From positions 3,894-14,830 of the forward strand of contig JAOZTO010000012.1 of the NCBI GenBank assembly GCA_029942265.1: 10,937 bases of DNA. The letters are read 5' to 3'. Position numbers and translations under genes: made by a program. Of this stretch, positions 8,376-10,876 are shown in pieces. Source of the DNA: Desulfocapsa sp. (GTDB lineage Bacteria > Desulfobacterota > Desulfobulbia > Desulfobulbales > Desulfocapsaceae). How positions within the stretch are numbered: the stretch's first letter is position 1; each line of letters opens with the position of its first letter. Under the pieces are notes generated by a model. It was not told the origin of the DNA, made no database searches, and worked only from the letters and a program-made list of their open reading frames with translations.

Positions 8376-8849
8376 ATGTTTAAACATGTTCTACTCTGTA
8401 CCCATGGAACTGAAGGTGCCCTAAAAGCTGAATCCTTTGTTTTTGAGCAATCAGCATTAAATCCGGATTTACAAGTTACCGTATTAACCATTCTCGATGA
8501 AGATTGGCGTGATATGACAGGTGATGACTGGCTCAATTCGAGTAAAACCCACGCCACTTTTCTTGACCATGTGGAAGAGCAGGTGGGAGAGGAAATAGCT
8601 GAAGAATGGCGTCGAATACAAGACACTTACCCAGTTTCTGCCAACGCATCGTTTCTACAGCGAACAGGTAGTATTGCAAAAACCATTACACAAGTTGCAG
8701 AAAAAAAAGATTGTGACCTGATCGTTATTGGTCCCTGTTATGTAAGTAAAGGCTTTTTAAAAGGTCAACCTCGTAAAGGCTTGCGAGATACAATGAAAAA
8801 CAAAGAACTTCACCCACTTCTGCCATGTCCACTACTGATAGCGTCATAA
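8376..8849 (+). CDS. Universal stress protein (UspA family)
   Basis: A 157-residue single-domain cytoplasmic protein. The start MFKHVLLCTHGTEGALKA, the VTVLTIL strand (34-40) and CDLIVIGP (113-120) followed by a C-terminal PCPLLIAS fit the Usp alpha/beta fold and usual length. The nucleotide-binding signature normally after the fourth strand (G-x2-G-x9-G-S/T) is not clean here: CYVSKGFLKGQPRKG occupies the place. ATP binding is therefore uncertain and it may belong to the non-ATP-binding UspA type. The ATG at 8376 has GGAGAG with 8-nt spacing. It is divergent from the channel gene and overlaps the next gene by 25 nt, so the two are translationally linked. Confidence 0.85.
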   Translation: MFKHVLLCTHGTEGALKAESFVFEQSALNPDLQVTVLTILDEDWRDMTGDDWLNSSKTHATFLDHVEEQVGEEIAEEWRRIQDTYPVSANASFLQRTGSIAKTITQVAEKKDCDLIVIGPCYVSKGFLKGQPRKGLRDTMKNKELHPLLPCPLLIAS

Positions 8850-9409
8850 CACCCAATCCTGCTGATACCACAGAGGTTAGCCTTTCTCTGCGACTTCCTA
8901 CTGGTTTTGATCTGCAGCCGTTTGTTCCTCATGATCGGCTGCTTCGGCTCCATCCCAACTGGTTCATATCAGATTTCCAGGAAGACGGAACATCCTTTTC
9001 AGCAAGCATAAAAGATTATGCCACTGAGGATGAATTCCCCCTTTCGGGTCAATTTGTTTTTAATGGAAAAGACGATGAGATTCTGCGTATCACATTGACT
9101 GAAACAATTGAGATAACGATTACCTTTTTAAGACGCAATGATGAATTAAGTGTTCAGGTACACTCTCCACAAGGAGAGCTGGACGTTGAAGATCCTCTCC
9201 TGCTCTGGATACGGGCAATCAGAGAGTATATTCGTATCTATGCAAAAAAAACTCCTGTGACGCTTTTTTTCAGGTTGCTTATGAACCGTATGGTACTACA
9301 GATGAATCCTTCGCAGCGGAAAATATGCCTGATGCTTGCGAGGTTTACGGCTGTAGAGATTTTACTTATTCTGTTTATTGTGATTGGCTATGTTGTTTTT
9401 GTCCTTTAA
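8825..9409 (+). CDS. Unknown protein with C-terminal membrane anchor, coupled to usp
   Basis: A 194-residue protein of unknown function. Residues 1-15 are polar. About 16-125 is a soluble, probably beta-rich region: LPTGFDLQPF, HPNWFISDF, then alternating strands to about 115. Residues 126-172 are helical and basic (REYIRIYAKK, MNPSQRKICLM), and one hydrophobic helix (about 174-194) ends at the C-terminus. The 'HPNW' turn followed by antiparallel strands and a long helix recalls SRPBCC/START-like folds, a low-confidence guess. The ATG at 8825 lies inside the usp gene without a clear Shine-Dalgarno, so translation probably relies on re-initiation after usp. No later ATG gives a comparable protein. 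Its 3' end overlaps the convergent selenoprotein gene by 35 nt. Confidence 0.7.
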   Translation: MSTTDSVITPNPADTTEVSLSLRLPTGFDLQPFVPHDRLLRLHPNWFISDFQEDGTSFSASIKDYATEDEFPLSGQFVFNGKDDEILRITLTETIEITITFLRRNDELSVQVHSPQGELDVEDPLLLWIRAIREYIRIYAKKTPVTLFFRLLMNRMVLQMNPSQRKICLMLARFTAVEILLILFIVIGYVVFVL

Positions 9410-9968
9410 TGCTGTTTGGCGATGAAAATCGTCCTCTTATCGTTGGGCGGGAACTGTTACTGCTGGATGAAGATGGTGGTTGTTTGTTGGAATAGCCACT
9501 TTTCACCATCTCTTTATCAAGTATTACTCCAAGTGCATGGGCAAGATCACCAACCAGTTTGATACAGTCTTTTCTGCTGCTTTCGGGGGCTGAGTAGTAG
9601 CGTTTAGTTGCCTCTCGGTCTGACCAGTTAATACGGGCAATGTCACTGCAATTTTGACCACCGAAAGGTTCTGTTAATGCGTTGAATTTGGAGATAACTT
9701 TATGGCTTACTCCCCATATTCGGGGGTTTTCTTTCTGGTTTAGGTTGCCCCGACTGTAGAGTGCTGATATTGTTGCCACTGCGCCAAGAAGTGCTCCACA
9801 GACAGAACCCGAACTTGCAATGCCACCACCAAATGCACCGGATGAGGCGATCACGTTCTCATCATATTTTTTGATTTTTTCCAGACCCACGGCCAGGATT
9901 GCCTGGCTTCAATGGAAGCGTTTTTTGAAAAGTTCCATAGCTTTATTTTGCATTTGTTCTGGTGTCAT
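9375..9968 (-). CDS. C-GCAxxG-C-C family protein with in-frame UGA (probable selenoprotein)
   Basis: A putative redox-active protein of 197 residues if the UGA at 9911-9909 is read as selenocysteine (U20). The frame starts at ATG 9968 with GAGG 8 nt upstream and reads FKKRFH-U-SQAILAVG, then FGGG (46-49), VCGALLG with C57, C107 and C135. In this family the first motif is a Cys followed by S/A-Q-A; here that exact Cys codon is TGA. The other three motif cysteines are present. Standard calling would start at GTG 9890 and lose the first motif. A SECIS-like hairpin follows the UGA. From memory, selenoprotein forms of this family occur in Deltaproteobacteria. The C-terminal 40 residues are Ser/Lys/Gln-rich (five consecutive Ser, 140-144), an unusual tail. 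The alternative is a nonsense mutation. The reaction catalysed is unknown. Confidence 0.8.
9880..9911 (-). promoter_or_regulatory. Bacterial SECIS-like element just after the in-frame UGA
   Basis: Going 5' to 3' on the minus strand after UGA (9911-9909), the arm UCCUGGCC (9898-9891) pairs with GGUCUGGA (9887-9880), with one U-U mismatch and one G-U pair. It closes a GUG apical loop (9890-9888). The loop starts 18 nt after the UGA and begins with G, both as described for bacterial SECIS elements. A competing hairpin GCCAGG/CCUGGC with a CAAU loop (9907-9892) is possible but lies too close to the UGA and lacks a loop G. Confidence 0.6.
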
Positions 9969-10008
9969 GATTTATTCCTCGTATAAAATTTACGTGCCTC
10001 GAATATGA

Positions 10009-10096: not shown

Positions 10097-10876
10097 GTGC
10101 AACCATTAATTGATACACACAGTCATATTGATTTGGAAATATTTGCCGATGATTTGTATGAGGTGCTGGAGAGATCGCGAGCTGTAGGAATTGTCGGCCA
10201 GGTTCTTCCTGGAGTGTCACAGCAGGGGTGGAAGAGGATAATCAGGCTCTGTTCCACGGAAAAAGATCTTTATCCTGCCTTGGGCTTGCATCCCATGTAC
10301 CTGCATCCTTATGCAGAGGAAGATTTGTCGCTACTGCGAACACATGCCTTAAATGGTAAAATAGTGGCCATTGGCGAAATTGGTCTGGATTATTTTGCAC
10401 AGAACGTAGATCGAGCAACTCAACAAGAACTGTTTAAAGCCCAGCTTGAAATAGCCATGGAAAGTCGACTGCCTGTACTACTGCATGTACGTAAGGCTCA
10501 TGATCAGGTTCAGAAGATTTTGAGGAACATGCGCTTTGGGCACGGTGGAATTGTTCATGCTTTTAGCGGTAGTTTGCAACAGGCTGAAAGGTATATGGAG
10601 TTAGGCTTTCTGCTAAGTATCTGCGGAACCATTACTTACGATCGAGCGACAAAGATTCGTAGTGTTGCAGCACAGCTCCCACTGGATTCTATTGTGCTGG
10701 AAACGGATTCTCCTGATATTCCTCCTAAAACATATCATGGGCAACGAAATAGCCCTGAGTATTTACCTGAAATTCTATGTTCTTTGGCGCAATTGCGCAA
10801 TGAATCCATGGAGGATATTGCTAGGCAGACAACACTTAACGCCAGAGCTGTTCTTAATACAGTAGCACTTGGGTAA
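10097..10876 (+). CDS. TatD-family metal-dependent hydrolase / DNase
   Basis: A 259-residue cytoplasmic TIM-barrel hydrolase of normal length for the family. The metal ligands are all present: H8 and H10 in DTHSHID, E94 in GEIGLDYF, H130 in VLLHVRKA, H154 in IVHAFSGS, and D204 in ETDSPDIPP. LGLHP (62-66) is another family signature. The GTG start at 10097 has AGAGGAA 7 nt upstream and places the first His pair at the expected distance; no in-frame ATG is better placed. Family members act as 3'-5' exonucleases/DNases or related hydrolases in DNA repair and quality control. The exact substrate here is not determined, so I give no gene symbol. It is divergent from the selenoprotein gene and no partner gene follows within the window. 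Confidence 0.93.
   Translation: MQPLIDTHSHIDLEIFADDLYEVLERSRAVGIVGQVLPGVSQQGWKRIIRLCSTEKDLYPALGLHPMYLHPYAEEDLSLLRTHALNGKIVAIGEIGLDYFAQNVDRATQQELFKAQLEIAMESRLPVLLHVRKAHDQVQKILRNMRFGHGGIVHAFSGSLQQAERYMELGFLLSICGTITYDRATKIRSVAAQLPLDSIVLETDSPDIPPKTYHGQRNSPEYLPEILCSLAQLRNESMEDIARQTTLNARAVLNTVALG

Follow-up and report, generated by a model that had tools for sequence, protein, structure and literature searches.

The window analysed here, a 10,937-nucleotide stretch of Desulfocapsa sp., of a sulfur-cycling genus (assembly GCA_029942265.1, contig JAOZTO010000012.1, positions 3,894 to 14,830), carries on its minus strand a gene that very probably encodes a selenoprotein of the C_GCAxxG_C_C family (PF09719), with a UGA at codon 20 in the place of the first motif cysteine (Table 1). 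From its ATG, 8 bases downstream of a GAGG, the frame is open to the terminal TAA except for this single TGA, and the read-through product has 197 residues, 177 of which follow residue 20. The predicted selenocysteine (Sec, U) stands in the context FH-U-SQAIL, and all four motif positions of the family are present (U20, C57, C107 and C135). With genetic code table 11, gene finding returned in the same frame an open reading frame (ORF) of 171 amino acids starting at GTG 9890, and the window's own entry in the protein set (P0001) is the identical 171-residue product. An earlier note on this DNA had described the frame with its upstream GAGG, one TGA and 177 further codons, the FHxSQAIL context with the three remaining cysteines intact, the family, and the truncation at GTG 9890 that automatic annotation would produce; each of these was found as described.

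With read-through, the protein reaches 68.3 bits on the PF09719 profile, whose cut-off is 27, versus 53.9 bits for the truncated form, and also lies above the cut-off of TIGR01909 (NCBIfam ‘C-GCAxxG-C-C family (seleno)protein'); three further NCBIfam models (NF045669, NF045501 and NF047622) match it below their cut-offs. Across 19 orthologues, the ratio of non-synonymous to synonymous differences (pN/pS) is 0.17 for codons 2–19 and 0.31 for codons 41–157. Protein-type constraint is seen both before and after the UGA in this frame and, because the PF09719 score also rises with read-through, it is not a product of chance.

The genome of the window (2.93 Mb in 588 contigs, 88.85% complete) encodes all four genes of the selenocysteine machinery: selA (599.9 bits), selB (380 bits), selD (373.3 bits, itself carrying an in-frame TGA) and selC, the tRNA-Sec (68.7 bits; called tRNA-SeC with anticodon TCA by ARAGORN). 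A second family member, on another contig of the same genome, is a 151-residue open frame with no internal stop, and its first motif position is by eye a cysteine (NCATTN).

The tail of the window's protein (about residues 160–197; window 9375–9490) is serine-rich and of low complexity, and the other 18 orthologues end at 156–168 residues.

Table 1. Features of the locus, in window coordinates
Feature	Position	Strand	Basis
Probable selenoprotein gene, C_GCAxxG_C_C family; 197 residues with predicted Sec20; start ATG 9968–9966, stop TAA 9377–9375	9375..9968	-	frame, profile, homologue codons
In-frame TGA, codon 20, putatively read as selenocysteine	9909..9911	-	homologue codons
GAGG, likely ribosome-binding site	9977..9980	-	sequence
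Cys57, motif	9798..9800	-	translation and homologues
Cys107, motif	9648..9650	-	translation and homologues
Cys135, motif	9564..9566	-	translation and homologues
Predicted bacterial SECIS hairpin UCC-U-GGCC-GUG-GGUC-U-GGA, apical loop 18 nucleotides after UGA	9880..9898	-	model fit, conservation
Alternative hairpin GCCAGG/CCUGGC, overlapping the predicted one; belongs to the lowest-energy fold of the window's own sequence	9892..9907	-	folding
TatD-family DNase gene, divergent neighbour (context only)	10097..10876	+	Pfam

Codon 20 and the selenium genes of relatives

Codon 20 was read in three sets of homologues. Among 56 genomes searched (own genome included), 30 had a match and 19 a close orthologue (49–99% identity), while 15 of the 34 rows (21–38% identity) were left out of the codon-level reading; codon 20 was TGA in 18 of the 19 and TGT in one. 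In a sample of the phylum (395 genomes, 41 with a strong match), 27 loci plus four tandem copies within them were read at codon level out of 45 rows, three rows being counted among the near orthologues and 11 rows without a locus being left out (five list one TGA, six none); TGA was found in 17 of these 31 copies and TGC or TGT in 14, with no other stop in the aligned part. A scan of named genomes, which found no relative with a single protein and did so with an alignment, yielded 78 copies at 75 loci, of which 67 have TGA, eight TGC and three TGT, counts that are not frequencies, because some genomes recur between sets and the patterns used for searching preferred certain forms. A tree of 49 codon-verified sequences needs at least seven changes between Cys and Sec, four of them forced by well-supported branches. 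Tandem copies of the Cys and the putative Sec form lie in three phylum-sample genomes (G106, G247 and G370) and two putative Sec copies in a fourth, G332 (loci L061, L062, L063 and L065).

The protein set, for which figures cover the 120 listed entries out of a total of 390 with the window's own counted in, bears the trace of the truncated annotation. Position 20 is Cys in 49 listed entries and Trp in six, and lies outside the entry in 65, most of which start at the codon equivalent to GTG 9890; Cys57, Cys107 and Cys135 are present in all 120. The UGA form also occurs in the named strains Desulfogranum mediterraneum DSM 13871 and Desulfogranum marinum DSM 2058.

Of the 44 gene-bearing genomes, 42 gave a selA match (41 of them above cut-off), and these 42 comprise 30 of the 32 genomes with TGA and all 12 with Cys only; loss of selA therefore does not explain the Cys form. 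At five selA loci (L015 and L092–L095), the gene directly after selA has a product of about 490 residues that shares 50–56% identity with its counterpart in the window's genome. The tRNA-Sec was above cut-off in two of the four relatives tested (G009 and G019). In the UGA-bearing genome G005, a contig end truncates the usual downstream neighbour of selA on the side facing selA, and an assembly gap is therefore likely there. The second case, G009, is Desulfocapsa sulfexigens DSM 10523, which has the UGA gene, selB and tRNA-Sec; neither selA nor its usual downstream neighbour was found in the analysed sequence. The chromosome is given as 3,986,761 bases in the accessible part of PMC3739170, and the analysed copy (3,982,500) is 4,261 shorter, so a missing piece is possible. 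Either there is a gap in this sequence, or selA was lost, or Sec-tRNA is made by another route. Such gaps in relatives leave the window's own genome, with all four genes, untouched.

The earlier note had expected Cys or Sec at position 20 of homologues, selA, selB, selC and selD elsewhere in the genome, and close relatives sharing the site rather than carrying scattered stops; all three expectations were borne out, and homologue codons, machinery and relatives agree in favouring its reading of the UGA as probable selenocysteine. It mentioned neither a hairpin after the UGA nor the existing listing of the family among selenoproteins.

A candidate selenocysteine insertion hairpin

The published model of the bacterial selenocysteine insertion sequence (bSECIS), as quoted in the available part of PMC13188914, places a loop of 3–9 nucleotides (nt), with G in the first two positions, 16–37 nt after the UGA. 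The hairpin predicted at 9880–9898 agrees with this model, its loop being GUG at 18 nt from the UGA, and the same GUG (9890–9888) is the codon taken as start in gene finding. The overlapping hairpin at 9892–9907 lies too close to the UGA for the published model.

In a scan restricted to model-conforming loops 16–37 nt after the UGA (34 UGA and 15 Cys sequences), the best loop lay at 17–20 nt in 33 of the 34 UGA sequences, and was spread over 16–37 nt in the Cys sequences. Mean hairpin energy was −11.0 kcal mol−1 in the UGA set versus −7.3 kcal mol−1 in the Cys set (P value=0.004; Mann–Whitney test), and 227 of 272 cells were paired in the window's register in the former versus 59 of 120 in the latter; five UGA sequences (L064 and L066–L069) have a stem CUUGC/GCAAG with a one-base shift. 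When codons were resampled with the protein unchanged, the observed pairing was reached in none of 2,000 draws for the UGA set versus 1,839 of 2,000 for the Cys set, under a null that takes related sequences as independent and uses the 19 near orthologues as the source of codons for every set. The synonymous component (pS) is 0.46 in codons 21–32, 0.74 in codons 41–157 and 0.70 in codons 2–19. A hairpin of bacterial SECIS type is, on comparison of the sequences, kept in UGA orthologues beyond the demands of the protein, and not in Cys orthologues. Since support from covariation is weak (see below), the main basis for this claim is the resampling of codons.

Both overlapping hairpins exceed the resampling null in the UGA set; as they are mutually exclusive, this may be a two-state signal, or merely reflect shared bases.

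Weighing of the alternatives

With UGA at the site of the first motif cysteine, SelA, SelB, SelD and tRNA-Sec(UCA) encoded in the genome and a conserved bSECIS-type hairpin behind the UGA, the gene is best explained as a bacterial selenoprotein gene of the PF09719 family, at a probability of roughly 96%. SelB, acting on the predicted hairpin, would bring Sec-tRNA-Sec to the UGA, and a 197-residue protein with Sec20 would be produced.

A number of observations weigh against this explanation. Among the 44 genomes, selA had no match in two that bear the UGA (G005 and G009), and in G019 selA was a fragment below cut-off and selB was also below cut-off; tRNA-Sec above cut-off was absent from G005 and from the 98%-complete G001, where 150 of 200 candidates were scored. 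The window's own RNA folds unremarkably (z from −0.58 to −0.79), with the hairpin nearer to the UGA, rather than the predicted bSECIS, as its most stable one. L070, a UGA sequence, conforms to neither register of the hairpin, and the relatedness of the sequences inflates the codon-resampling result. In the covariation set (27 of the 28 main-register sequences, L075 being left out as a better fit to the shifted register), only one of eight pairs changed on both sides, in four cells, a level attained in 17 of 500 shuffles; the observed proportion of paired cells was attained in 56 of 500, and pair 14–26 is unformed in 13 of the 27 sequences. To these are added the six listed entries with Trp at position 20, and no report of selenium in this protein was found.

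Were the TGA a true stop, in a pseudogene or through a sequencing error, only the 171-residue piece from GTG 9890 would be made; this is what gene finding yields, and what the 65 listed entries without the site, mostly starting at the matching codon, would suggest. Yet codon 20 is TGA in 18 of the 19 orthologues and 67 of 78 named-locus copies, all others having Cys codons, the codons upstream of it are more constrained than those well downstream, and the GUG taken as start lies within the conserved hairpin, in its apical loop. On the conservation of the TGA and the constraint that flanks it, a pseudogene or sequencing error was rejected as highly improbable. Tryptophan at the UGA, through an altered genetic code or suppressor tRNA, would accord with the six Trp entries, of which gene calling with table 4 could be the source; it is hardly credible, however, as codon-verified copies have TGA, TGC or TGT and never TGG (49 different sequences of near orthologues and phylum sample, and 78 named-genome copies, partly from the same genomes). 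TGA is moreover the ordinary terminal stop of the gene in 10 of the 19 orthologues, and tRNA-Sec(UCA) and selB are present; this decoding was likewise rejected.

Surroundings, related proteins and possible function

At its 3′ end the probable selenoprotein gene overlaps by 35 bases an opposite-strand ORF (8825–9409, plus strand; 194 residues) for which neither Pfam nor NCBIfam gave a match at E 0.001. The TatD match of the divergent neighbour recurs in the loci of 11 of 18 close relatives, and an Rfam scan of the window at gathering scores gave no match.

C-GCAxxG-C-C proteins are already tabulated as a selenoprotein family, as form 1 and form 2 in the accessible part of PMC13188914 and as one row in that of PMC9312934, and these belong to the same Pfam family as the window's protein, which therefore adds a further member. 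As seen in those parts, the tables of the two forms state no Sec residue, so the form of the window's protein is not assignable from them. Among curated models, NF045501 (HUGP/GUXX-star fusion selenoprotein) matches residues 5–139 at 41.9 bits, below its cut-off of 325; its name suggests a Sec after His, like HU-SQ here, but it differs in being a fusion with two Sec, by name and by a count of 2 in the available part of PMC13188914. NF045669 (DVU_1555 family C-GCAxxG-C-C protein) matches residues 7–142 at 64.4 bits, below its cut-off of 103. Passages of two further papers touch the family: an acetone-induced PF09719 protein ‘of unknown function' (PMC4103992) and a member that a table of an iron stimulon lists next to an Nramp metal transporter (PMC10434189). 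No mechanism for a C-GCAxxG-C-C protein was found in the open-access passages available, and none of the papers listed by searches of an open-access library was recognisably about this gene.

The predicted fold of the window's protein matches split-Soret cytochrome c (PDB 1h21) at 18% identity. The sequence match to NF047622 stays below that model's 400-bit cut-off, and a profile search of PDB sequences matched only the region around Cys57. CxxCH haem-binding motifs define split-Soret cytochrome c; the 197-residue protein, unlike it, has none. Because the PDB title of this structural match names an iron centre, Sec20 together with Cys57, Cys107 and Cys135 might form one redox or metal site, perhaps iron or iron–sulfur. 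That Sec20 is a selenolate ligand of a centre like that of split-Soret cytochrome c, as this analogy would have it, is nonetheless unlikely. A metal-free role, in which Sec20 would act as a thiol-redox residue forming a selenenylsulfide with Cys57 or another motif Cys, is a tentative but reasonable possibility, given that Pfam describes the family as putatively redox-active. Redox enzymes also make up most selenoproteins (general knowledge, and so stated in the accessible part of PMC9312934). The four near-invariant chalcogen positions and the fold match to an iron-centre protein, however, would suit a metal site equally well or better, neither being decisive.

Reading the gene as a selenoprotein gene mends an annotation that is cut short in many relatives too, and provides what is probably a natural set of variants of one small protein, some with Sec and others with Cys. 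With the named strains that have the UGA form, it can be tested directly whether Sec is incorporated and what the first motif position does. If Sec20 were a metal ligand, this widespread family would be a naturally occurring group of metal proteins in which Sec and Cys are exchanged, with the switch made several times on the tree and both kinds of copy adjacent in some genomes.
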